Positions 10,637 to 29,996 of a stretch of 31,071 bases of DNA are shown here, piece by piece. The stretch is from the IMG/VR virus record IMGVR_UViG_3300044613_000543, positions 1-31,071 of that record. The stretch is one strand, 5' to 3'. Every line of letters starts with the position of its first letter. Position 1 is the stretch's first letter. The position numbers were made by a program, and so were the translations under genes. This DNA is from a virus. The notes under the pieces were generated by a model, which saw nothing but the letters and a program-made list of their open reading frames with translations, was not told the origin of the DNA and made no database searches.

Positions 10637-11194
10637 TTATTCTTCTGGGAAGTCATAGTTACTAAAGCAATCATCATTGTTACCTGGTAAGTACATACCA
10701 CCAAACAAAGCCGTGTTTTTTGGTTTGATGACATCAAAGCCACTACCAGGATTTAAATATTTAGGGTAAATCTGTGGGTACTCCTTCAAGAAGTTACGCA
10801 ATCTCTCAGCATAGTACTCTGCCTTATCTCTGTATCTCTGCTCGATTAGAGTTAACTCCTGAGGTGTAATAGGTTGAGCAAATTCTGCTTGACGTGAGCT
10901 AACGGACTTGTTTAAGAATTTAAAAGTCATCGGAAGCATTGACTCTACTAAAGTGTAATACTTCAAACAGGGTGCAATATATGAATCTAAAAGAGTCGTG
11001 TTGTCAGCAGTTACGTTACCGTTAAAGGTTTGAACTTGCAGTTCGTCATATATACCGCTACCGATGATGTCACGAATATACACTTCTTGTGCCTCTTTTA
11101 TAGCACTTTTTAAAAGTTTTGGATCTACATTCTCATTTATAGGACTATTATCCTGTAAATATGTTGTACTGATAAAATAGACAAAGTTAGCCAT
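10637..11194 (-). CDS. Head-tail adaptor (gp6-like) protein
   Basis: The 185-aa protein has FISTTYLQDNSPINENVDPK, then AQEVYIRDIIGSGIYDELQV, LLDSYIAPCLKYYTLVESML and FLNKSVSSRQAEFAQPITPQ. This mostly helical pattern is the adaptor commonly found after the portal in Bacteroidota phages, like HK97 gp6. It would form the ring below the portal. It overlaps the portal gene by 8 nt. Confidence 0.8.
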   Translation of the reverse strand: MANFVYFISTTYLQDNSPINENVDPKLLKSAIKEAQEVYIRDIIGSGIYDELQVQTFNGNVTADNTTLLDSYIAPCLKYYTLVESMLPMTFKFLNKSVSSRQAEFAQPITPQELTLIEQRYRDKAEYYAERLRNFLKEYPQIYPKYLNPGSGFDVIKPKNTALFGGMYLPGNNDDCFSNYDFPEE

Positions 11195-12968
11195 TGATTT
11201 TTCTTCTTAATAATTGTGATTTCCAAATGTGTCTGCAATAAGGCACGTGAATAGCAGGTGAAGAGCCTTTAACTGTCATCCAACCGCCTCTTCTTTCCCA
11301 AGCGTTGTAACCTACTCTTGATGAAATTGTGTCGATGTCTTCACGAGTGTACACACGATTTAAAGCGATTAAACTTCGGCAAAAATCTCTTGAAGTAGGT
11401 ATGATTTCAGAGCCGCTTATTCCAGGTGCTTTTTCGTAAGTATAACGCACTAAAAGTTCTGTCCCTAACCCTGAGTCTACAAGCGTCTTAGTTCCTTGCT
11501 CTGTGACGTTTAAAATGTTATCTGCTGAGGTGATTAAGCCGTCATTGATTAATTTGGTTACTGCCTCCGCTACTTTATCAGCATCTTGCTTAATGTTGTT
11601 AGCAAGGTCTTGAAGTGTTAACTCTGTGTTTCCGTTCAAAAACTGCAGAATGATTAATTCAAGAGCAGAGGCAAAATCAAAAGGGACTTTTTCAAACTTA
11701 GTAGCTAACTCACCGAATTGCTCAAAAACTGCGAGGTCTTTGTCGTCATCCCAACCAAAAGGATTGTGTGAACATGAGGGGTGACTTGGGGGGTTACTTG
11801 AGGGGTAAGATGACATTGCAACAGTGTCGCTCATGCCTAACTCTCTTCTTGCTTCAGCTTGTGAGATAATGCCTTTCTCAAAAAGTTGGATGTAATCTAA
11901 ACCGATTGGAGGCTTATTTTTAGTTTTTAAAGTTACAGGCGTAATAAACTTAAAAATAGAAGTTAACGCCCTATCCATTTGATTCTGACGTGGCTCAATG
12001 TAAGCCGTTTGGAAAGCCTCGTAAGATTCTATCAGTTCTGAACGCCCTCCGAGTTGCCCTTCTGTCTTAATTCCGAACAACATCGGAGATGTGACACGAT
12101 GTGCCATCAAAATTTCTTGCTGCACAGTTTGGTTTAAAAGGTCAAACTGCTTGTCAAAGTCAGAGGGTGCTAAGTTATTGACGACAGATGGCGTTTCGTT
12201 TGGATCGTTAAATTGAATAATAATAGAACCTGCATTATCTGTTCCGCTAAAGTTTTCTTTAAATCTCTTAATAGTCTGACGCATCTCTTCAGGTGTTGGA
12301 ACGCCTTTAAAGAGTTGTAAAAGAGTTTGAGCAGAGAAACCACTCTTTATACTATTTAAGTGAAAATTTGCAATCTCCGTGTCTATTTCGATGTATTTTA
12401 AAGCACTTTGATACGGTGCAGTTGGATATTCCCCTTGACCTGCTTTGTACATCTTAAAATAATACAACTGCTTGTTTTCACGGGTGATTGGATTCCATGA
12501 GTAGTAGTAAATCGGATCTAACTTTCTATCGCTCCAATCTTCAGCGTACCAATAGTGACCGTCAAGAGAAATGCGGACATTTTGAAACGGTAAGTGATAA
12601 ATCTCAGCTATGGAGGTTTTCGCTTTGTTCCAAATAATTTCCAATGCGAATCCGTCAAAGAGTTCAAGGTCAGCAGCAATCTTTGCTTTAACGTCATCAA
12701 AGGACTCATAAGCGTTAATAGAAGCAAGTTTATCATTTGCGATTGTTAGTTGCTCTGTATTGTTTGCTATGACCTCTGTTTTGTCACCTGCTATGTATTG
12801 AGCCTTTTGTGATACCAACGCTCCATGCTTTGGAGAAGAGTTGTAAAGGTCAATTAACATCTGTGGGTACTTGTTATCCGTACCATAGGTAATATAGTTC
12901 TTCGCCTTATTTTCTTTGAAAACAGGTATCTTGCTTTCGGCAAAGTTTATTCTTGCAAATTCTGTCAT
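11187..12968 (-). CDS. Portal protein with winged-helix and MuF-like C-terminal extension
   Basis: The protein is 593 aa. Residues 1-385 match phage portals: YITYGTDNKYP (25-35), SPKHGALVSQKAQYIAG (45-61), DLELFDGFALEIIW (100-113), HRVTSPMLFGI (290-300) and ESYEAFQTAYIEPRQ (314-328). A linker (387-405) leads to a winged-helix-like segment (432-500: LELIILQFLNGN, LADLANNI-type helix, LINDGLIT). Residues 508-590 contain SRDFCRSLIALNRVYTREDI and a final YCRHIW, resembling the Cys/His-tipped minor head (SPP1 gp7/MuF) domain. The portal ring forms the DNA entry channel. It is about 200 residues longer than the core, and it lies far from the terminase. Confidence 0.85.
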   Translation of the reverse strand: MTEFARINFAESKIPVFKENKAKNYITYGTDNKYPQMLIDLYNSSPKHGALVSQKAQYIAGDKTEVIANNTEQLTIANDKLASINAYESFDDVKAKIAADLELFDGFALEIIWNKAKTSIAEIYHLPFQNVRISLDGHYWYAEDWSDRKLDPIYYYSWNPITRENKQLYYFKMYKAGQGEYPTAPYQSALKYIEIDTEIANFHLNSIKSGFSAQTLLQLFKGVPTPEEMRQTIKRFKENFSGTDNAGSIIIQFNDPNETPSVVNNLAPSDFDKQFDLLNQTVQQEILMAHRVTSPMLFGIKTEGQLGGRSELIESYEAFQTAYIEPRQNQMDRALTSIFKFITPVTLKTKNKPPIGLDYIQLFEKGIISQAEARRELGMSDTVAMSSYPSSNPPSHPSCSHNPFGWDDDKDLAVFEQFGELATKFEKVPFDFASALELIILQFLNGNTELTLQDLANNIKQDADKVAEAVTKLINDGLITSADNILNVTEQGTKTLVDSGLGTELLVRYTYEKAPGISGSEIIPTSRDFCRSLIALNRVYTREDIDTISSRVGYNAWERRGGWMTVKGSSPAIHVPYCRHIWKSQLLRRKING

Positions 12969-13081
12969 CTTCCTTGTGCGTTATATGGTTTACTTGATTT
13001 GTGTTTATTCTTATGTTTGGTGTGCCGTCTAAGTTTTTTAGTTGGCTTTGCTTTAAATAAGTTAATCTGCTGCTTTGCCAT
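12965..13081 (-). CDS. Tiny basic protein, 38 aa
   Basis: A 38-residue protein (MAKQQINLFKAKPTKKLR, then RHTKHKNKHKSSKPY and NAQGR) with about a third Lys, Arg and His. I recall similar tiny proteins just upstream of Bacteroidota phage portals. It overlaps the upstream holin-like gene by 20 nt and the portal ATG by ATGA, supporting translation. It may bind nucleic acid or aid packaging, but this is unproven. Confidence 0.7.
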   Translation of the reverse strand: MAKQQINLFKAKPTKKLRRHTKHKNKHKSSKPYNAQGR

Positions 13082-13232
13082 CTTTTGAAAATAAAAGTAG
13101 TAAACCTCCACCAATAAATGCCGTAAACTCAGTTAATGTTGCTTTTTCAAACCACACAAGCAAAAAGCCTACGCCCATAACTCCCAAGCCTAAAGCAGTA
13201 GATTTCCAATTTTTAAATATACGATCAATCAT
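13062..13232 (-). CDS. Holin-like small membrane protein, 56 aa
   Basis: The short protein has two hydrophobic segments (STALGLGVMGVGFLLVWF, about 11-28, and TAFIGGGLLLLF, about 37-48) joined by a short charged turn, with a basic N-terminus and KDGKAAD at the end. This two-helix hairpin resembles class II holins. It follows the next holin-like gene by ATGA overlap. Together they may form a holin and antiholin pair, though either could work alone. Confidence 0.72.
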   Translation of the reverse strand: MIDRIFKNWKSTALGLGVMGVGFLLVWFEKATLTEFTAFIGGGLLLLFSKDGKAAD

Positions 13233-13399
13233 TTGCGTAGTTTTTTAATGTAGTAAATAGCACCAAGTAAGCCTGTAACAATTGCGATTAAACCACCGAT
13301 TGCTGAAATAATAGGATTCCATGTAGTTGCAATAGAGCTAAAAGCACCTACAAACGATGTTGTAGTTAAAGCGTTAGCTGTTGTATCAGTTAGTTTCAT
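13229..13399 (-). CDS. Holin-like single-pass protein, 56 aa
   Basis: The start at 13397-13399 (MKLTDTTANALTTTSFVGAF) is preferred to an upstream Met at 13519, because the longer form runs through the 13386-13616 gene. A polar Thr-rich N-terminus precedes one long hydrophobic segment (ISAIGGLIAIVTGLLGAIYY) and a basic end IKKLRK. This topology is that of small phage holins. It begins inside the last codons of the upstream gene. Confidence 0.7.
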   Translation of the reverse strand: MKLTDTTANALTTTSFVGAFSSIATTWNPIISAIGGLIAIVTGLLGAIYYIKKLRK

Positions 13400-13616
13400 T
13401 GAATGGGTTAGGTGTTGGTTTAGGTATGTATTCGGCTTGTGGTAGGTCAAACAACCACATATATTCAGAATCTTTAAAGGTCTCTTTATCTTGCTCGTTT
13501 CCGAAAAAGAACCAAACATCGTTAATGTCTTGAACGCAGTTAATAAAGCAGTAAGGGTTTATAAACTTGCCTTGTACTTGTGCTGCTTGTTCTTCTATTA
13601 AAATATAGCCTATCAT
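13386..13616 (-). CDS. Small fibre-associated protein, 76 aa
   Basis: The 76-aa protein has YILIEEQAAQVQGKFINPYC and DINDVWFFFGNEQD, ending in a Pro-rich tail. I recall such short proteins after tail fibre genes in related phages. It overlaps the LamG-like gene by ATGA and the holin-like gene by 14 nt. A role as fibre accessory or chaperone is only positional. Confidence 0.65.
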   Translation of the reverse strand: MIGYILIEEQAAQVQGKFINPYCFINCVQDINDVWFFFGNEQDKETFKDSEYMWLFDLPQAEYIPKPTPNPFNETN

Positions 13617-14422
13617 CTTGATAATGAGTTATTAAATGTTTGTAATGCAGTCCAGTAATTATCAACTTCAATTTGGCTTAATCCATCACCGATAAAACAA
13701 AAACTAAACTGTTTTGATGAAAACGCTGCAGCAGATCCAGAATTATTTCCTGCACCTAAGAAAATTGTTGTATTTGGATTTGTACCAACATTCTCATTCA
13801 CAGTTGCGTCTATTGTAGAACTGCCTCTTTTATGTCTTGTATATGCAGTAGATGATGTTCTTGATGTAACAAATAAACCTACTGAACTTGTATTGCTACT
13901 TCCAGGAACAACACTAATACAATTTAAACCTGAATAAAACTGACCACCAGAGAATCGAGAATAAATAGTGGAAGAGTTTGCACCACTTGCAATCGTGCCG
14001 CTTCCCATGTCACAAATAATACCTGATTGATCGCTTCTTGAAATAAATCCCATTGATCCATTCGAGGTTGAAGACCAATTGCCTTGATTGTTAAACCCAC
14101 TATCCATATACGCACTACTACCGTTTGGCGTTATACCCGTACTTGCAAAAGTCCAACCACTCGTAAAAGTACCCGTAAAACTACTACTTTTTAAGTTCTG
14201 AGCACACGCTGAGGCACTTGCTCCGACCATCGGATATATGGCTTTCATTTTAGTCCAAAGTGAATTGGCTTTTAATGCAAGTACCAAAGTATTAACCGCT
14301 GTTTTTTCAGTATTAGAAAGTGAACCACCAGCGGTTGCAACTCGGTCAAAAAACGCTTGTGCGTCAGTATCAAATCCCTGCACTATCTGACTTCCAACGA
14401 TTCCGTGTGTACTTAAAATCAT
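13613..14422 (-). CDS. LamG-like receptor-binding or fibre protein
   Basis: The 269-aa protein begins with a helical region (DTDAQAFFDRVATAGGSLSN, ending AIYPMVGASASA). The rest is Ser/Gly/Thr-rich and beta-like (GTFTSGWTFASTGITPNG, SSAYMDSGFN), suggesting a concanavalin A/LamG jelly-roll. I recognise this architecture from tail-fibre loci of Bacteroidota phages, where it probably binds host surface glycans. It overlaps the fibre gene by 4 nt. Confidence 0.72.
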   Translation of the reverse strand: MILSTHGIVGSQIVQGFDTDAQAFFDRVATAGGSLSNTEKTAVNTLVLALKANSLWTKMKAIYPMVGASASACAQNLKSSSFTGTFTSGWTFASTGITPNGSSAYMDSGFNNQGNWSSTSNGSMGFISRSDQSGIICDMGSGTIASGANSSTIYSRFSGGQFYSGLNCISVVPGSSNTSSVGLFVTSRTSSTAYTRHKRGSSTIDATVNENVGTNPNTTIFLGAGNNSGSAAAFSSKQFSFCFIGDGLSQIEVDNYWTALQTFNNSLSR

Positions 14423-15660
14423 GCTACTATATCTCCAAATAAATAGGCTTCCGTACTACTTAAAAATATCAAAGTTGCACCGCTATATTGAACATTTAAT
14501 TTAAGTTTACCACCATTGCTGCGAATAGTCATTCCGCTACCCGCTACGATTGTAGTTTGTCCTGCGCCATATTGCGCAAGTAAAATTTGAGTACCCGCAG
14601 AAAAAACTGATGCGGGAACGGTCAAGTTATTAGCACTACCTACGTTCATCTCAACTAACTTATCAGCATCAGACAAAACAAGTGTATAAGATGCCGTTTG
14701 GCGGTTTGTTGTGATTAGTTTTGCAGTCTTTGAATCTACTTGCGTCTGCACCGCACTCGTCACCCCACTCACATATCCTAATTCAGTAGATGTAACCGAA
14801 GAAACTGCAACCTTACCGATACTATCAGAAATTAATGCCCTTGAAGCCGTTAAATCTTCGGTATCAATAGTTGTCGCTGCCCCTGTGATGGTTGCTTGTT
14901 TGCCGTTAATTTGTGTTTGAATGTCGCTTGTTACACTACCTAAATATTGAAACTCCGTATTTGTAACGCTTCCATCCGCTATTTTGGTTGCATCAATTCC
15001 GCTTGGTAAATCAGTTGCCGTAAGGTCTGCCCCAGCAGTTACTAATCCTTTTGCATCGTAGGTTATTTTTGTTTTTGTCGCCCCTGTTATCGCTGCGTTT
15101 TCATCTACTTTCGCATCCAATTGCGTTTGAATTGCAGAGGTTACACCGTTTAAAGTCTGAAACTCAGTATTACTTACACTTCCGTCACCTAACTTCGCAG
15201 CGTCAATCCCTGTGCCTAATTTAGCATTTGACACAACACCGTTGTCAATAGTCCAAGTCGCTCCACTTGCAGACACGGTTATATCGCCTTTGTCTCCGTC
15301 AGATATTCCGCCGCCTCCAACTGTGATATTTCCACTTCCTAATAGAGATTCATTATTAATGGTCTTGATGTTAGTGCCGCTAACTAAAGTTGCTTGTTTA
15401 GCGTTTAAAGCTGATTGAGTCGCACTTGAAATAGGCTTGTCAGCATCAGCAGTATTATCTACGTTACCCAAACCAACATCACCTTTAACAAGAGTAACTG
15501 ATCCTGTTTTAGAAGCAACACTTTGTACCGGTGCTTCACTTTTAATTTGAGCAATGCTTATTTTCTTTGTAGTAGATGCTGAGGTGTCAACGATAGGTAG
15601 AACGTCATCCGTTGCTATCGTAACTATGGCATCTAAGGCACTAATTTTTTTATCTGGCAT
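14419..15660 (-). CDS. Tail fibre protein with triple repeats
   Basis: The 413-aa protein begins MPDKKISALDAIVTIATDDV and ITVGGGG-type glycine patches follow. Three repeats share the pattern SVxNTEFxxL, VTSxIQTQ and K (161-184, 231-254 and 288-311). The last 100 residues end in MTIRSNGGKLKLNVQYSG and AYLFGDIVA, a common fibre tip. The fibre probably forms a trimer that contacts the host. It starts in the stop region of the preceding gene and overlaps the LamG-like gene by 4 nt. Confidence 0.85.
   Translation of the reverse strand: MPDKKISALDAIVTIATDDVLPIVDTSASTTKKISIAQIKSEAPVQSVASKTGSVTLVKGDVGLGNVDNTADADKPISSATQSALNAKQATLVSGTNIKTINNESLLGSGNITVGGGGISDGDKGDITVSASGATWTIDNGVVSNAKLGTGIDAAKLGDGSVSNTEFQTLNGVTSAIQTQLDAKVDENAAITGATKTKITYDAKGLVTAGADLTATDLPSGIDATKIADGSVTNTEFQYLGSVTSDIQTQINGKQATITGAATTIDTEDLTASRALISDSIGKVAVSSVTSTELGYVSGVTSAVQTQVDSKTAKLITTNRQTASYTLVLSDADKLVEMNVGSANNLTVPASVFSAGTQILLAQYGAGQTTIVAGSGMTIRSNGGKLKLNVQYSGATLIFLSSTEAYLFGDIVA
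14728..15180 (-). repeat. Three imperfect fibre repeats
   Basis: Coding repeats of 24 residues at 15109-15180, 14899-14970 and 14728-14799, spaced 70 and 57 residues apart. They look like related beta-prism building blocks of the fibre shaft. The third is the most diverged. Confidence 0.75.
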
Positions 15661-16106
15661 TATAGTAAAATTTTTGAGTCATCTTCTTGAAGCAAGAAAT
15701 CACCGCTTTCCAACAATAGGTAAGCGATTGTCTCAGGTGCTTCTATTTCGTATATTTTTTCGTTGAGTTCAACGGTGTATTCAGACCTTGTAACATCAAA
15801 GTCAACTTTAACAAGACCTTCTTCAACTAACTCGTTTGCAAGTTCAGGATTTGTGTTAACTGACGAAGTCTGAGCGTATATTCTATAAAGATACTCACCT
15901 GCATCGAGTGTAACGGTTGCACCTTCTGTAATTGCAAACTCGTTGTATCTTTCTTTGTAGCTTGAAATATCAGTTAAAAGAAAGTTATATTCTACGGCAG
16001 TTAAACGATGTTTAAGGCTAAACAAATAGTAAGGGTTAGAGATAGTGGTTTTCTCTGTTAAAGTCAAATACCAATTCTTACTCTCCGCCTTATTTATCTG
16101 TAGCAT
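15660..16106 (-). CDS. Virion structural protein near tail fibres, 148 aa
   Basis: The protein begins MLQINKAESKNWYLTLTEKT and contains NPYYLFSLKHRLT, YKERYNEFAITEGATVTL and AGEYLYRIYAQTSS, ending in LLLESGDFLLQEDDSKILL. I know this beta-rich family from Bacteroidota phage structural blocks; its exact place in the virion is uncertain (fibre adaptor or baseplate). It is the first gene after the terminator at 16143-16170, so it must rely on readthrough or a weak promoter that I could not identify. Confidence 0.7.
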   Translation of the reverse strand: MLQINKAESKNWYLTLTEKTTISNPYYLFSLKHRLTAVEYNFLLTDISSYKERYNEFAITEGATVTLDAGEYLYRIYAQTSSVNTNPELANELVEEGLVKVDFDVTRSEYTVELNEKIYEIEAPETIAYLLLESGDFLLQEDDSKILL

Positions 16107-16142
16107 CTATTAGTAAATAACTTTTTTGTGAAATTGGCAAAT

Positions 16143-16170
16143 AAAAAAGGGTGACCGAAGCCACCCCTTT
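16143..16170 (-). terminator. Intrinsic terminator with UUCG tetraloop
   Basis: On the minus strand the stem GGGTGGC/GTCACCC is closed on a TTCG tetraloop (C-G closing pair) and flanked by A-T pairs, followed by six T's. It lies after the major capsid and tail-tube-like genes and before the fibre genes. It would limit fibre and lysis expression relative to the major structural proteins. Confidence 0.85.
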
Positions 16171-16192
16171 GCATGAAACAAACTATGAAAAC

Positions 16193-16699
16193 TTAAATCG
16201 AGAGAGCAGTTACAACAGAAGCCTGTAATTTGTAAGGACTTTCAGACTCAATAGCACTCAAAGTGAAATTGTAGCCGTAGTTGTCACCCATTGCAGTTCC
16301 TGTTTCAGCAGTCATAGCGGTGATGTCGCAACCGTATTCTCTCCCAACCAACCAGTAAGTACTATTGTTATCTTCTACAATACAGAAAACTCTGTTCTGA
16401 GAAAGAAGTTTCAATTCGTTACGTTTAGTTGTTGCAAGTTTTCTCAAACGAGCAACTACGTCTGTTTGATTGAATACAGTTCCGTTTTCCTGAGAGACGT
16501 TAGTAGTGGTAGTCATAGAACCCACACCCTTAGGCATTTCGTATGTGTATACGTTGCCTGAAGCAATGGTGGTTGCTGTAACCTCTCCACCACTTACGGT
16601 AAATCCTGTTGCTGCAAAGTTAATCAAATGGATGGCTTTAACACCTCCTACTGAATCTTTACAGTCTAATACAAATCCCGAAGTTAGAGAGCAGCTCAT
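16193..16699 (-). CDS. Probable tail tube or other major structural protein, 168 aa
   Basis: The protein begins MSCSLTSGFVLDCKDSVGG, then Thr-rich strands, RLRKLATTKRNELKLLSQNR (an amphipathic helix), VFCIVEDNNSTYWLVGREYG and a final YGYNFTLSAIESESPYKL. I recognise this family directly after the capsid gene in Bacteroidota phages. Its beta-sandwich-like pattern and its high-expression position fit a tail tube protein, though a head decoration role is not excluded. The terminator at 16143-16170 follows. Confidence 0.68.
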   Translation of the reverse strand: MSCSLTSGFVLDCKDSVGGVKAIHLINFAATGFTVSGGEVTATTIASGNVYTYEMPKGVGSMTTTTNVSQENGTVFNQTDVVARLRKLATTKRNELKLLSQNRVFCIVEDNNSTYWLVGREYGCDITAMTAETGTAMGDNYGYNFTLSAIESESPYKLQASVVTALSI

Positions 16700-16710
16700 A
16701 TTCTATGAAA

Positions 16711-17646
16711 TTAAGCTAATTTAAACTGAACGATTTGATCAGGGAATGCAAACTGAACGCCATACTTCATAGTAGCACGGAAACGTACCTCGTCTGAGTC
16801 CTGTGAATACCAAAATCTGTATTCTTCTTGTTCATTTGCTAAGTCAGTACCTACAAAGAAGTTACTCAAACGACCTAAGAACATACGGTTTGTTCCGTTC
16901 AATCCACCTACAGCAACCATTTTCACGTTAGTTGCAGGAATCATGATTTCCATTCCGTCACTGTCAGCAGCGTAGTGGAATAAGTTGTTATTTCTAAGAG
17001 CAGTAGTGTACTTTTTGAAAGTGTCTATTCCAACCCACAAAACGATATCAGAAGCGTCAGAGATATCAGCAGGGATAACGTTGTAGATATTGTCTATCAA
17101 ATCGTCTACGTTAGCAACAGTAATTGAAGTAGCAGAAGAAGTGTTACCAGAAACAGTTGAAGCAGAAGCAGCGTCAATCAACTTAATGAAACCGTCAAAC
17201 TTGTTAGTGTTAGGGTTAGTGTTGGTTGTTGCTGTGTCACCTTGCCACATTGCGATTTCTAACAATTTAGCGATGTTGTTCGCTTTGTCTTGTCCGATTT
17301 GCTCTTCAAAAGGAACTGAGGTTGGAGAACCTGCAGCGATTTGAGTTTGCATCCACTTTGCTTCCAAAGTCTTAGGACACAAAGTCTCTTCAACTTTGAT
17401 TTTACCTACAGTGATGTTACGCTGAGAGAAAGTAGTGTTACCTGAAGCAGTGTAACCGCAACCGTCAGTTTGAAAATAAACGTCAGAAGTAAGGATGTTC
17501 AAAGCCTCTGCAGACTTTACACCTACTTGAACTTGACCTGCTGCTTGTAAAATAGCTGCAGTTTTTGAACCAAACAAAGACTTAAGTACTAACTCTGTAG
17601 ACTGCTCGTTGGTGTAATTTGCTAAGGCTGATACGTTAAATGCCAT
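16711..17646 (-). CDS. Major capsid protein
   Basis: The 311-aa protein begins MAFNVSALANYTNEQSTELV and includes FQTDGCGYTASGNTTFSQRN, VEETLCPKTLEAKWMQTQ, a repeated Asn/Thr stretch and SDASDIVLWVGIDTFKKYTT, ending VQFAFPDQIVQFKLA. Its place between scaffold and tail-tube-like genes, its length and these segments identify it as an HK97-fold capsid protein of Bacteroidota phages. An A-rich tract directly precedes the ATG, as for highly expressed genes in these hosts. Confidence 0.85.
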   Translation of the reverse strand: MAFNVSALANYTNEQSTELVLKSLFGSKTAAILQAAGQVQVGVKSAEALNILTSDVYFQTDGCGYTASGNTTFSQRNITVGKIKVEETLCPKTLEAKWMQTQIAAGSPTSVPFEEQIGQDKANNIAKLLEIAMWQGDTATTNTNPNTNKFDGFIKLIDAASASTVSGNTSSATSITVANVDDLIDNIYNVIPADISDASDIVLWVGIDTFKKYTTALRNNNLFHYAADSDGMEIMIPATNVKMVAVGGLNGTNRMFLGRLSNFFVGTDLANEQEEYRFWYSQDSDEVRFRATMKYGVQFAFPDQIVQFKLA

Positions 17647-17650
17647 TTTT

Positions 17651-18208
17651 TTATTTATTTTTTAGGGTTTGTGCAATTTTCATGATGTTTGCGAACTGCT
17701 CCTCTTTCTTAGAAAGTTTTGCAGGTGCTTTTGTTGGTTCTTCAGATGGTAAATCTGCTACTTTTTCAACTAAATCAACGGTCTTGCTGAAGATGTCTTT
17801 CATTGAGTTGAATTTAGCCTCTTGCTCTACGTTCTTCTTTTCCATTGCTTCAAGACGTGCTACAACTTCATTGAACTTGTCTAACAAAGAATTGAAAGAC
17901 TCAACGGTTGCAAACTCTTTAGCTTCAACTTCAACTTCAACTTCTTGTTCGATTTCTACGATTTCGGTAACAATGCCGCCTTCAGTAGTTACAAGCATAC
18001 CGCCTTCAACTTCGTGAGTAGCGTCAGGAGCAGGAATAAGACCTTCGCCAGTTTGAACGAAGATAGCAGTACCTACCGCAAGTTCGCCTTCCCATTCAAT
18101 GATCGTGCCATCTACTAATGTGGCAGTTTCCATCTTCACCTCTTCGGTCTTCTCTTCTGAGAAACCTAACAAGGTTCTGATTTCTTTGATTACTTCTTTT
18201 GAATTCAT
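17651..18208 (-). CDS. Capsid scaffold protein
   Basis: The 185-aa protein has a helical N-terminus (MNSKEVIKEIRTLLGFSEEK), a small beta-rich acidic segment (LVDGTIIEWEGELAVGTAIF, to about 85), an acidic VEIEQEVEVEVEAKE stretch and a long coiled coil (105-150) with a basic tail of Lys-rich helices. This composition and its place between protease and capsid fit a scaffold that is cut and lost at maturation. It begins 33 nt after the protease stop. Confidence 0.75.
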   Translation of the reverse strand: MNSKEVIKEIRTLLGFSEEKTEEVKMETATLVDGTIIEWEGELAVGTAIFVQTGEGLIPAPDATHEVEGGMLVTTEGGIVTEIVEIEQEVEVEVEAKEFATVESFNSLLDKFNEVVARLEAMEKKNVEQEAKFNSMKDIFSKTVDLVEKVADLPSEEPTKAPAKLSKKEEQFANIMKIAQTLKNK

Positions 18209-19179: not shown

Positions 19180-20820
19180 TTACCCACCTAACACGCTTAC
19201 ATTCTGATTATTTGCTACTCTTCGTTGTGTTCTTGTGATGTCACCTTCTAACACAAATACTCTTCGTTCTTGTGTCAAAATATCTTGACCTTGTGGAAGT
19301 CGTGTAGTAGGTGCAGTAAATGTCTGAGCAGTTGAAACCGAACCAACTGATGGCGATGGTGTTGAATTAGGGTTAAATTGTTGTCTTGAAATTGTCGCTA
19401 TTTTAGCAATACCAAACGCTGCTGCAGTTGCTGCTTGTACAAAAGGATAAGCAGGGAACGCTGTTGTTATTGGAGAAGCCGATGCACTTTTAAAAGCCTC
19501 TAAAGTAGCCTCAACTGTTGCAATAGTTGCAGTAGTTAAAGATAATGCTTTTCTAACTTGAAATGCTTTACGTTGACTTGCTTCAGATTCGTTAGCAAAA
19601 GCGGTTGTAAGTTCTGAAATTGCAGCAAAAGTGTTTATAAAAGTATTTACGAAGTCGACACCAAAAGCACTAACACCTAATTTAAGCCTTTCGATGTTGC
19701 TTAACTGATTGTCTGTTGTTTGCTCAATAACTACGTTTGTTGCTGCTATGTTTGCAGCTGCTTGTGCTTGTAATGCTCCTGTAGTATCTTGTAATTGTTT
19801 GCCTTGAAAAGTTCTTAATTCTTGTGCTGATTTTTCTCTTTGTTGTCTACTCCAATTATCAAAATCTATTTTTGCCTTTTGCTCGTCTGTTAAACCTTGT
19901 TTTGCAACTTGTGTACTTGTCTTTACTTCTTGTTTTTTAAGTTCTTCTAAACGCTTAGTTAATTTTAATTGTTGGTTTAGTAATCTTTCGTTTTCAAGGG
20001 CTTGTGCTTTTTCTCTTTTATCTCTTCTTTCAAATTCATCTTTATCAATTTCTCCATTTAATATTCTTTGTCCTCTAAAAAACTCTGCATTAAACTCTTG
20101 TTGTCTTTTTAATTCTTGCTGACCTGCTTTTAATCGTGCCTGAGTTGATTTTAAATTTTCTTCAACCACTGCTCTTTCACCCTCTAATAAAAGTTTACGT
20201 TCTTGCTTTAATTTACGAATTTCTTCATTGTATGCCTGTTGTTCTTTGGTAGCTAAATTTGTTTTTTCAGCTACGCTATCAAAAGCATTTGCAAGATTAT
20301 AAACTAAATCAATTACCAAGCCTATACCAAGGGTTAAAAAGGCTTTTTGAATAAGAGACAATGATACAAACCAAGTTTTTGTAGCTTGTGCAATATTTAA
20401 AATAGCAGGAGCAAACTCTTTTAAATCTTTAAGACCTTGTGAAAATATCATTGCCGCTTGTACACGAACAAGAATCTTTTCTAAATCTTCGGAAGTTGTA
20501 CCAAATATAGCCATAGCACCTGCAGCAATCTCAAAACCTGCTGCTACTCCTTGAATAGCACCAAATAGTTTTTGAGTGTTGCCTCTGTTGGCATCTACTG
20601 CCTGGTCTAACTGCTCAAGTTGTTGCTTGTACTGACCTGCAGTCTTTATTGCCTCTTGAGTCCGTTTGTCGTTTATTCCGAATTGAAGAGCTAAAGCCTC
20701 TGCTTCTCTTTGGGTTTTCGCAAACGCATCTCCCAAATCTTCGTAAACTGTTGCTGCCTGTTGAACGGTTTGTATGCCGTTAACATCTACGTCTATTTTT
20801 ACTGCGGTTTCTATTGTCAT
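19180..20820 (-). CDS. Tail tape measure protein
   Basis: The 546-aa protein has an early helical region, hydrophobic segments (GAIQGVAAGFEIAAGAMAIF at 87-106 and FLTLGIGLVIDLVYNL at 161-176), a long charged coiled coil (about 195-330), an Ala-rich hydrophobic part (about 430-480) and the ending QERRVFVLEGDITRTQRRV typical of Bacteroidota phage tape measures. It sets tail length and may help eject DNA. At about 1.5 angstroms per residue it would give a tail near 80 nm. It follows the tail-tip protein by 3 nt. Confidence 0.85.
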   Translation of the reverse strand: MTIETAVKIDVDVNGIQTVQQAATVYEDLGDAFAKTQREAEALALQFGINDKRTQEAIKTAGQYKQQLEQLDQAVDANRGNTQKLFGAIQGVAAGFEIAAGAMAIFGTTSEDLEKILVRVQAAMIFSQGLKDLKEFAPAILNIAQATKTWFVSLSLIQKAFLTLGIGLVIDLVYNLANAFDSVAEKTNLATKEQQAYNEEIRKLKQERKLLLEGERAVVEENLKSTQARLKAGQQELKRQQEFNAEFFRGQRILNGEIDKDEFERRDKREKAQALENERLLNQQLKLTKRLEELKKQEVKTSTQVAKQGLTDEQKAKIDFDNWSRQQREKSAQELRTFQGKQLQDTTGALQAQAAANIAATNVVIEQTTDNQLSNIERLKLGVSAFGVDFVNTFINTFAAISELTTAFANESEASQRKAFQVRKALSLTTATIATVEATLEAFKSASASPITTAFPAYPFVQAATAAAFGIAKIATISRQQFNPNSTPSPSVGSVSTAQTFTAPTTRLPQGQDILTQERRVFVLEGDITRTQRRVANNQNVSVLGG

Positions 20821-24789: not shown

Positions 24790-25523
24790 TCAAAGCAATT
24801 CGTTTAAACAAGCACATACATAAGATTCAAAACCCTGTTGTGCTGCCTTTTCTAATCTCTTCTGTTGTTGTCTTTTTACCGTTATATGGAACGAAAGAGT
24901 ATTCAAAAACTCCTTTAATGACAAGTTAAGAATGATATCCCATTCATTACGTTTGCCTCCTGCTAATCGGTCAATGAGTCCAAGCCATCCGAAAGCATCT
25001 CCTTCATCTTCGCTTCCTTCTCCTTCAAATAAGTTAGGGTAGCCTCTAATAACTTCGGATAAAGTTGAGAAAAAAAAACCGCGTAATTGTAGAAGTTTAC
25101 CAACGGTAAATCTGCAAAGTCTTTGACCTTCTCTTCGTAGTCATCTTCCTTCCTTTGCCCCAAGATATTTATTCGATATGACAAACACGCTATTATCTCA
25201 GGCAGCACTTCAATAGTGTCTTTCTTCATTAACTCCTGAAGTTCTATGAAATGGTGAGCCTTCATTTCCTTTGCAGTTTTAACAAGTCTGTATCTCTTGC
25301 CTTTGTGCTTAAAGGTAAATTTTAATTTACTTTTTGGTATCTCTTGAAGAAATGTCAAGTCTATTGACTTTAATTTGTCAAGTGTCCATTGCTCTACTTC
25401 TTCGTAGGGCGTTTCTGTCAAAATAGATACAACCCATGCCGTTCTTTCAATAGGGTTGCAGTTCTTGTCTATCTCGTTAATTTCTTGTAGTTTTTTGATT
25501 GTTATGTTGTTCCAATTAAGCAT
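24790..25523 (-). CDS. Tail assembly chaperone, full-length frameshift product (244 aa)
   Basis: The -1 frame is open from the T9 tract at 25070-25078 to TGA at 24790-24792. It lacks any ATG, GTG or useful TTG start, so it must be read by frameshifting. Joined after residue 151 it adds 93 residues, including EGDAFGWLGLIDRLAGGKRN and EWDIILNLSLKEFLNTLSFH. That motif (GW, RLAGG, EWDIIL) resembles the second chaperone segment in Bacteroidota tail loci. The arrangement matches lambda G and GT. Such proteins bind the tape measure before tube polymerisation. A homopolymer error in the assembly would look the same, so reads must decide. Confidence 0.78.
24963..25523 (-). CDS. Tail assembly chaperone, short zero-frame product
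   Basis: The start at 25521-25523 (MLNWNNITIKKLQEINEIDK) overlaps the terminase stop by 8 nt and replaces an upstream Met. The 186-aa protein has IERTAWVVSILTETPYEEVE, KSKLKFTFKHKGKRYRL and IIACLSYRINILGQ, the helix and strand order I recall for Bacteroidota tail chaperones. It ends in LYPKLLEATLTYLKEKEAK and DSLTD. The zero-frame protein would be the abundant form, as lambda gpG is. Confidence 0.72.
   Translation of the reverse strand: MLNWNNITIKKLQEINEIDKNCNPIERTAWVVSILTETPYEEVEQWTLDKLKSIDLTFLQEIPKSKLKFTFKHKGKRYRLVKTAKEMKAHHFIELQELMKKDTIEVLPEIIACLSYRINILGQRKEDDYEEKVKDFADLPLVNFYNYAVFFSQLYPKLLEATLTYLKEKEAKMKEMLSDGLDSLTD
25070..25078 (-). promoter_or_regulatory. T9 slippery site for -1 frameshifting
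   Basis: Coding-strand GCG GTT TTT TTT TCT carries a perfect T TTT TTT heptamer in the zero frame. A -1 slip continues as TTC TCA ACT and opens the 93-codon extension. No canonical heptamer occurs between this tract and the zero-frame stop. Confidence 0.75.
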
Positions 25524-26703
25524 AAAAAAATAATCCTTTCTTGTTGTGTTGTTTGCAGTCCCACGCCAACGCCAACGACATAACACAGTCATCGTGCAGT
25601 CCTTGTGGTGCAGTGTATTTTACTCCTGTTCGGGAATATTCAAATTCAAAGTTACGCATTTCATCGGCAATGTTCCCGTCAGGGAATCCTATTTGTCTCT
25701 GTTGTACTGCCATTACCAAGCCTTCGATAAGTTGTTGTTTGCTCTGTGATGTAAATTTAAAGCCTACTACTCTTGGGTGCTTACGTTGTAGCTGCTCAAC
25801 GATTGGATCTCCAACACCAGTAGAGTCTAAATAGGTCGGAGTGTTTCCTATTAAGTTAGAAATCTTTGTCATTGTCTGTGACCAATCCATTTGAAAGCGT
25901 TCAAAATGACATACGTTCCCTTGTTCGTTAAGTCCTATTATAACCGTCCAATCCGTATATTTTGCTAAGTCAATGCCGTATGCCGTAACTATACCCGATT
26001 GGGTAGGAATTATACAGTTTTCGATGTTATCGTACCCGAAAGGGTTTGAATTGTCATCAGCAGGTTCTGCAAGGTACAACTCTTTGAAAACGTAGTCGGG
26101 TAGGTCACGCTTTGCCTGTTCTATTTCTTCAACGTCTAAGATGCCTTCTTTCGCTGCATCGTAAGCGGTAATTTTAAAGTATTCAAGATTAGGTTCGCCT
26201 CCTTTTGCTTTCTCGCCTAACTTGTAAAACCAATTCTTTTTCCCTTTGACGTTACCGATTAGTTTACACTTACCTTTGGTTGCAGTCAACGTAGAACGCA
26301 AAGCGAACCAGGATTCCTCTCTTGCTCTACTTGCCTCGTCAAATACCGCAGCAAATACGTCATCACCGTAAAGGTTATCAGGTTTCTCTGCTGATTTAAA
26401 CTCTATGCGTGAGCCTATCGGAGTAGTCAAGACAAGTTTAGATTCATTGCTCTGGAAGAAGTCACGAGAGTTGACCTGTGCTTTCATTCTCCTGAATGCA
26501 ATCTCTGCTTGTTGGTACACTGGAGCAACCCACCAAACAGCTTGGTTTTCTTTTAATGCCAAACTCTGTTCAAACAACCATATAATATGAGATGCAGTTT
26601 TACCTGTCTTAGTCGAAGCTGCCGTAATCGTGTAACGTGCAGGACTATCTAAGATGGCTTTCTGATAACTCGTTAAAAATGGTCGCTTGTAGTTTATTTG
26701 CAT
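25516..26703 (-). CDS. terL: Terminase large subunit
   Basis: The 395-aa protein has an ATPase with Walker A ASTKTGKT at 29-37, an adjacent VWWVAPVYQQAE and Walker B VFDEAS at 120-125. The RNase H-like nuclease follows, with D245 in YGIDLAKYTDW, D293 in YLDSTGVGD, and D371/D372 in GLHDDCVMSLALAW. It drives DNA into the prohead and cuts concatemers. It overlaps the glycosyltransferase gene by 10 nt and the chaperone gene by 8 nt. Confidence 0.96.
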   Translation of the reverse strand: MQINYKRPFLTSYQKAILDSPARYTITAASTKTGKTASHIIWLFEQSLALKENQAVWWVAPVYQQAEIAFRRMKAQVNSRDFFQSNESKLVLTTPIGSRIEFKSAEKPDNLYGDDVFAAVFDEASRAREESWFALRSTLTATKGKCKLIGNVKGKKNWFYKLGEKAKGGEPNLEYFKITAYDAAKEGILDVEEIEQAKRDLPDYVFKELYLAEPADDNSNPFGYDNIENCIIPTQSGIVTAYGIDLAKYTDWTVIIGLNEQGNVCHFERFQMDWSQTMTKISNLIGNTPTYLDSTGVGDPIVEQLQRKHPRVVGFKFTSQSKQQLIEGLVMAVQQRQIGFPDGNIADEMRNFEFEYSRTGVKYTAPQGLHDDCVMSLALAWDCKQHNKKGLFFYA

Positions 26704-27716
26704 ACTTTCTGTAACAAATCTATTCTCTTTTTGTTAATCTCTTGGATGTTGTGATGCTCGTTGCAGTATTTGTAGTTTATCAATCCTACCTCATGACTTT
26801 TTCCGCTTTCTATCAGTTGCGTTAACGGTGTAGTCCAATCGTTATTCTGAACAAAGAAAACTCCTAAGTTACTTTTGTGGTTGGTGTATGGTTCTACACT
26901 TGAAACTAAAATAGGTCGCTTGTAAGCAGCAGCCTCAACGATCTTCAACTCTGACTTGTACCGGTTAAATGTCTGAGCCGTCAAAGGTGCTAAACAAATG
27001 TCTATCTCTGAATAAATCTCAGCGTATTTGTCAGGTGTTGTACCTACTATAGTTTCAAACCATGTCGGTCTGTTCTTTTGGCTTTCTCCTGTGACTGCTT
27101 TCTCCATCTCTGCCCACATTCTACTATTCTCGTGGTGTCCACCCATTATAAAACGATAGCCGTAGTTTTCGCAAATTGGTCTAATTTGACCACTTAACAA
27201 CTTTATGTCCTCAACGTGACTTATTCCACCTACCCAACCAATCGTTGGTGTATGGTCTTTATTTACGTTCCATTGAGCCTGTGTAAAGTCTACTGCGTTT
27301 TCAGCTATAGTAATATTATTGCCTTTGTAAAACTCCTTTATTTTTTCAGCAAGTTGTGGAGTCGTTACTTGTACGCCATCAGCATATGTCAAAGCGTTCT
27401 TAACTCCATCTTTAATGTAGGCACGATAAAACTTGTACGCTGGGTTGTACTTTGGTAGTACCCAATAGTCATCAAGATCAACGATGTAAGGCACTTTGTA
27501 TTTTGCAAGTAGCGGAAGTATGTTGTACTGATAGCGTCCTAACCAACGGTTAAATATAACGCAATCGTATTGCTGATAGTCCAAGTTTACCCACTCTTGA
27601 TGGTTCAAGCTGACATCAACAGTAATGTCGTGATCTTGTTGTAAACGAAGATAAGGCGTATACAATCTGTGGAAAGATACGCCGTTCGCTCCGTCAAGTA
27701 GACAAATGATTCTCAT
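26694..27716 (-). CDS. GT-B fold glycosyltransferase (GT4-like)
   Basis: The 340-aa protein starts MRIICLLDGANGVSFHRLYT and has YIVDLDDYW (78-85), ITIAENAVD (135-143), TIGWVGGISHVEDIKLL (158-174) and the nucleotide-sugar-binding SELKIVEAAAYKRPILVSS with E261. These are hallmarks of GT4-type retaining enzymes. It could glycosylate virion or host-surface proteins, or modify DNA, and no specificity is visible. Placement between small and large terminase genes, overlapping terL by 10 nt, is unusual and suggests expression with the packaging genes. Confidence 0.85.
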   Translation of the reverse strand: MRIICLLDGANGVSFHRLYTPYLRLQQDHDITVDVSLNHQEWVNLDYQQYDCVIFNRWLGRYQYNILPLLAKYKVPYIVDLDDYWVLPKYNPAYKFYRAYIKDGVKNALTYADGVQVTTPQLAEKIKEFYKGNNITIAENAVDFTQAQWNVNKDHTPTIGWVGGISHVEDIKLLSGQIRPICENYGYRFIMGGHHENSRMWAEMEKAVTGESQKNRPTWFETIVGTTPDKYAEIYSEIDICLAPLTAQTFNRYKSELKIVEAAAYKRPILVSSVEPYTNHKSNLGVFFVQNNDWTTPLTQLIESGKSHEVGLINYKYCNEHHNIQEINKKRIDLLQKVCK

Positions 27717-29426: not shown

Positions 29427-29996
29427 TTAGTTCATTTTTTTCTTAAATAATAAACTCCACTTCGTAGGCTTTGACATCTCCAGCAGTAGAGTAAATCCGC
29501 ATTGCTCAAATAAATGTACCCAATGTGATACAGGCTTGATGTTGATGTGTCCCCATTCTTTATCAAAATTAGAATAGTGAGGCGTGGATGAGAAATGAAA
29601 GTAGTTGCACTTTAGATTAGCTAAGAATGGTTTTAACTTGTCATCTTCAATATGCTCCATTACTTCTATGCAACTTACAAAGTCTGCCTTGATTTTCTTT
29701 GTTGTAAAATCGCAGATATGATATTCATCTGCTACGTTTCGCTCGTGGGCGTATTCATAGTGATGTTCATTCAGGTCGTAGTAAATAGTCTTAATGCCTT
29801 TCTTTTTCATTGCTAAACAATAAGCACCTACGCCACCGCCTAAGTCTGTGTGTGTTTTAATATCTAACAGAGTTGTGATTTCATTTACAACATCGTCATA
29901 CATATTTACGAATGATGGGTTATCTAAATGGATGCCGTTTCGCATCTCGTAGTCAAAGCATTGCTGATTATTCCAAGTTCCTCCAAATGAGTTCAT
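29427..29996 (-). CDS. SAM-dependent methyltransferase, small-molecule or protein type
   Basis: The 189-aa protein has motif I DLGGGVGAYC (51-60), the acidic D74 in IYYDLNEHHY, FVSCIEVMEHI (106-116) and TPHYSNFDKEWGHINIKPVS. These are Methyltransf_11/23-like class I motifs. There is no DPPY or NPPY, so it is not an ordinary amino-DNA methyltransferase. It may act on a glycan, lipid or protein, perhaps together with the glycosyltransferase, but the substrate is not visible. It overlaps the upstream gene by 29 nt. Confidence 0.85.
   Translation of the reverse strand: MNSFGGTWNNQQCFDYEMRNGIHLDNPSFVNMYDDVVNEITTLLDIKTHTDLGGGVGAYCLAMKKKGIKTIYYDLNEHHYEYAHERNVADEYHICDFTTKKIKADFVSCIEVMEHIEDDKLKPFLANLKCNYFHFSSTPHYSNFDKEWGHINIKPVSHWVHLFEQCGFTLLLEMSKPTKWSLLFKKKMN

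Follow-up and report, generated by a model that had tools for sequence, protein, structure and literature searches.

The gene lying directly behind the large terminase gene in the viral DNA analysed here, a window of 31,071 nucleotides, probably gives rise to two tail assembly chaperones by a programmed -1 slip on a tract of nine T's (T9). In the proposed scheme a single start would serve both proteins: most of the decoding would stay in frame and yield a G-like protein of 186 aa, and a minority would slip to the -1 frame on the tract and yield a GT-like fusion with a predicted length of 244 aa. Both forms are proposed to act as tail assembly chaperones, the N-terminal part that they share would bind the tape measure protein, and the part encoded in the -1 frame would recruit tail tube subunits, as in the gpG/gpGT pair of phage lambda. 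A programmed fusion from the T9 gene is strongly supported by comparison of the sequence with its relatives.

A preliminary description of this DNA had reported the tract and its surroundings, and a re-reading of the sequence found its coordinates, tract and codon counts right; the T9 tract with an open -1 frame is confirmed as real (Table 1). The tract is the longest homopolymer of the whole window. The zero frame starts at the ATG at 25523 and shares its first 8 nt with the end of the terminase gene; the gene stands directly after the large terminase, as had been said. A heptamer T TTT TTT in the correct phase lies within the tract, and the -1 frame is open for the 93 codons claimed with no ATG, GTG or useful TTG: its first TTG comes late, 154 nt past the T9 start and beyond the conserved FGWLGLIDRLAGG motif.

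Table 1. Features of the T9 gene and its neighbours, in coordinates of the window
Feature	Position	Strand	Remarks
Zero-frame product (G-like)	24963..25523	minus	186 aa; homologues in 283 fetched copies
Slip site T9 (A9 on the plus strand)	25070..25078	minus	codons GTT TTT TTT TCT
In-phase heptamer T_TTT_TTT (X_XXY_YYZ)	25071..25077	minus	
-1 frame extension (T-like)	24790..25071	minus	93 codons and stop; without ATG/GTG
Dual-coded stretch	24963..25069	minus	zero-frame tail SQLYPKLLEATLTYL..., -1 frame FSTLSEVIRGYPNLF...
Predicted fusion junction			AVFFFSTLSEVIR; fusion would read ...AVFFFSTLSE...
Putative long-range stem, 5' arm	25054..25062	minus	RNAalifold; starts 7 nt after T9
Putative long-range stem, 3' arm	24985..24993	minus	RNAalifold
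Terminase large subunit, directly upstream	25516..26703	minus	Pfam Terminase_6C above cut-off; tblastn to annotated terminases
Next gene downstream, 393 aa	23571..24752	minus	phrog_35281 (unknown function)
546 aa protein, third gene downstream	19180..20820	minus	tape-measure-like by appearance

How is the site kept in related genomes? The near family fetched from IMG/VR comprises 283 copies, overlapping loci of one contig being counted among them, with 100 distinct sequences around the site, and every one of the 283 carries exactly T9 in the same phase. The -1 extension measures 91-93 aa in complete near relatives and shows 63-74% identity across the near family, where its conserved sequence, FGWLxLIDRLAGGxRxEWD, starts at the tract itself. 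The zero-frame tail past the slip is mostly 29-47 aa long in these relatives, with a conserved first part, SALYPKLLDATLTYL. The presence of T9 at the slip site exceeds chance: runs of at least nine T occur in 26 of 349 non-redundant ORFs of the fetched relatives (95,667 codons), and 25 of these are the T9 gene at the same site. The remaining ORF with a T9 run is unrelated, encodes 369 aa and has its tract in another phase. A pattern scan also returned a locus (L193) that matched the motif pattern and proved unrelated. The window protein itself has no match in INPHARED phages by tblastn, nor in the genome contigs searched.

Homopolymers are error-prone, and one could suppose an assembly or sequencing error in the tract, or else a gene in decay. 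Ten T's in place of nine, which would join the two frames into one, had been named as the outcome that would undo the frameshift, and independent assemblies from many metagenomes give T9. Because these assemblies agree on tract length with isolated phages that other groups sequenced, an error in the homopolymer lacks credibility; with both frames under selection, as described below, decay fares no better, and to error or decay we assign a negligible probability. Another view of the locus would be that of two separate genes, the second segment being translated from its own start by coupled re-initiation, as the annotation of two Nonlabens phages has it. In those phages codon 26 of the -1 stretch is an ATG that overlaps the zero-frame stop (TAATG), and in 8 of the 100 family sequences an ATG or GTG stands in the open -1 frame ahead of the tract. 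Against this, 92 of the 100 distinct sequences contain no ATG or GTG where the -1 frame is open, as far as codon 28 past T9, so that a conserved start is absent as the preliminary description would have it, the conserved -1 sequence begins at the tract, and a frozen tract would be needless if the second segment were initiated on its own. We regard separate genes as highly improbable. The conservation of T9, together with the pattern of synonymous change, makes sequencing error, decay and separate initiation very unlikely.

That pattern was obtained from 40 representatives, one of which (L157) is a distant relative. Among pairs sharing the amino acid, synonymous identity reaches 1.00 at all three slip codons, against expectations of 0.30, 0.62 and 0.62. 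At nearly every codon as far as about +28 after the tract it remains higher than expected, and past the zero-frame stop it returns to the gene average. Where the two frames overlap, a third-position change that is silent in the -1 frame falls on the second position of the zero-frame codon, and since such changes alter that codon, the synonymous pattern there indicates that both products are kept by selection. Selection acts on the tract and on both products. Constraint at the RNA level could add to the conservation of the overlap. RNAalifold proposes an 8 bp stem downstream of the tract, whose pairs are kept in 98% of cells at a count not above that of shuffles, and single-sequence folds downstream of T9 are no better than shuffled ones and give no stable structure. 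We do not claim this stem, as its pair counts fall within the shuffles and the raised conservation of the region is already accounted for by the two overlapping frames.

The preliminary description had looked to related genomes for the same slip and extension, and both prove conserved down to about 20-30% identity. Distant groups at this level keep NTT TTT TTT T, with T9 in all but one case of T10, and the W...L..G motif remains recognisable in their -1 extensions. The L157/L305 group (L157 and 13 further loci) reads GTT TTT TTT TGG; loci L335-L339, L340-L341 and L342-L343 have T9 followed by GG in the same arrangement, which is shared also by L345 (T9 then C) and L344 (T10). The groups L335-L345 show 28-31% identity to the L305 group.

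The cultured Nonlabens (Persicivirga) phages P12024S/L carry CTT TTT TTT TAT in the gene that immediately follows the terminase (L294 8001-8695, corresponding to JQ823122.1 23136-23830, and L295 2501-3195). Their record annotates the two halves separately as the hypothetical proteins gp38 and gp39, which PHROGs places in phrog_32199 and phrog_38404, each a family of unknown function. Very likely gp38 and gp39 are one frameshifted gene, split in the annotation and between PHROGs 32199 and 38404. The predicted model of the window's zero-frame product (mean pLDDT 83) matches the gp38 fold with an E of 5e-7, and on this ground the window family belongs with the wider T9 set. The P12024S/L genes resemble that of the window in standing after TerL, in having T9 in the same phase and in a -1 stretch open across the tract; they differ in their two annotated proteins, a shorter zero-frame tail (25 aa) and very low sequence identity.

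A T9 site with a -1 extension was not found in the scanned phages Riemerella RAP44, Olleya Harreka_1, Bacteroides BS-TP2 and Flavobacterium 11b, and T9 is therefore not universal in phages of Bacteroidota. Two of these four offer sites of their own. In Flavobacterium phage 11b (NC_006356.2; L313 ~18175) the ORF just before the 18521-20359 gene contains an A run, ATAAAAAAAAAGTGAC, and a -1 extension of 115 codons, a candidate frameshift at a different kind of site. In RAP44 (L310 ~15385, minus) A_AAT_TTT with an 88-codon -1 extension lies in a gene upstream of the tape measure gene and is a candidate tail chaperone frameshift. As a separate matter, the terminase of OQ791282.1, 'Shigella phage Henu10', scores like those of Riemerella phages, and the host label of that record may be wrong.

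Are the two products tail assembly chaperones? That the fusion is made, the ratio of the products and their chaperone function are matters we infer, the last from the architecture of the gene, its location among tail-like neighbours and weak fold matches. Tail chaperones are recognised by the combination of a short form with a -1 extension, and among BFVD proteins the zero-frame model has weak matches to two that bear the name tail assembly chaperone (E 0.017 and 0.025). The pair could instead be a programmed one of another function, for example a head-tail connector or other morphogenesis protein, which we consider unlikely. Such a reading could draw on the position of the gene behind the terminase, with no recognised tape measure gene adjoining, and on the searches: the window protein has no convincing Pfam, PHROG or NCBIfam family match, no curated family names any member of its family a tail assembly chaperone, and nothing significant came from a PDB fold search of the zero-frame model or from a fold search of the -1 domain. 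The 'chaperone-like motif' attributed earlier to the -1 frame finds no backing in Pfam, PHROG or NCBIfam. In favour of chaperones stand the hallmark architecture, the weak fold matches and the downstream genes, which look tail-like.

As to those neighbours, the statement that the gene comes shortly before the tail genes holds insofar as the genes downstream are tail-like, their role being judged from their look; the tape-measure-like ORF is the third downstream. The 393 aa product of the next gene is probably a tail protein, and the 546 aa tape-measure-like protein has no significant family match in Pfam, PHROG and NCBIfam searches. A 168 aa protein of the window is the candidate tail tube protein. 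Elsewhere in the window, the minus-strand genes at 26694-27716 and 29427-29996, upstream of the terminase, appear glycosyltransferase-like and methyltransferase-like by the look of their sequence alone. The gene order at 11187-18208 is unusual: the portal gene (12968-11187) comes downstream of that for the capsid (17646-16711) and at a great distance from the terminase.

What could be the slipping agent? Between ribosome and polymerase the odds are roughly even. Ribosomal -1 slippage on U_UUU_UUU is about as probable as its contrary; that RNA polymerase slips on T9, so that some mRNAs carry U10 (or U8) and the fusion is read without any shift of the ribosome, has in our estimate a little short of an even chance. 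Polymerase slippage would suit the length of the run, which is at least nine in every group though a ribosomal heptamer needs seven. Avoidance of A/T runs is evident from nine in many bacterial genomes, and runs of 9A or 9T are used as slippage sites (PMC1088944). In the other genes of the same phages A9+ runs number 3 against 16.4 expected, A8 is less avoided (23 observed, 33 expected) and A heptamers are fewer than expected whatever the reading phase; the lack of a convincing downstream RNA structure also fits slippage in transcription. Speaking against a ribosomal slip, U_UUU_UUU works less well in E. coli as a ribosomal slip site than A_AAA_AAG does (PMC5009743). For T9+ runs elsewhere in coding sequence, the 0-1 observed against about 2.4 expected are too few to tell.

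On the other side, the outer T's beyond the heptamer are explained also by the amino acids encoded: the first T belongs to V/L/I in the zero frame, and the last to a zero-frame S/W/Y/F as well as to F/L in the -1 frame. T heptamers are most avoided in phase (10 against 25 expected, with 13 against 25 in the other phases), and this avoidance, slightly stronger in the ribosomal phase, may be taken as weakly suggesting a ribosomal slip. The frameshifts of known tail chaperones are likewise described as ribosomal (PMC5009743). The wider proposal that in a broad phage group, Bacteroidota-infecting as judged from one cultured pair, the tail chaperone pair arises through slipping of RNA polymerase on a fixed T9 is a tentative one, which we would sooner doubt than accept. 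If polymerase slippage were true, it would be transcription, rather than the ribosome, that fixes the ratio of short to long form.

Tail chaperone genes with a programmed -1 fusion are already known as a kind. In the open-access papers searched, neither this gene family nor its T9 site was found described, and the same holds for the long tail read in two frames and for the position after the terminase. The results offer a functional guess for a gene family so far unannotated, which occurs in several very distant phage groups, and suggest an annotation correction for the two cultured phages P12024S/L. With T9 retained as the proteins drifted apart to about 20-30% identity, the site constitutes a clean natural case, in a tail gene, for setting ribosomal against transcriptional slippage.

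Among known systems, the HK97 tail assembly chaperone (PDB 2ob9) is a solved member of the functional class, and it ranked second in the PDB fold search with a non-significant match to the window model (E 3.5, probability 0.06). The usual location of G/GT genes, typical and not strictly defining, is between the major tail protein and the tape measure gene. It is in location that the lambda G/GT logic invoked by the preliminary description departs from the window: the T9 gene lies directly after TerL and, unlike in lambda, no recognised tape measure gene adjoins it. The logic holds for the slippery site, the startless -1 extension and their conservation in relatives. With lambda gpG/gpGT the window shares the layout of one start for a short zero-frame protein and its -1 extension, set in a tailed phage's morphogenesis region; it differs in the T9 slip site, in a sequence homology that is undetectable, and in a zero frame that in most near relatives runs on for 29-44 codons past the slip under selection. 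The lambda proteins gpG and gpGT, produced in a ratio of ~30:1, attach to the tape measure and recruit the tail shaft subunit (PMC5009743). The slippage genes dnaX of T. thermophilus and mxiE of Shigella, with nine A's or a U run (PMC1088944), are unlike the window in not being phage tail genes; like the T9 gene they hold a homopolymer inside the coding sequence, and they give two products, as the T9 gene would.
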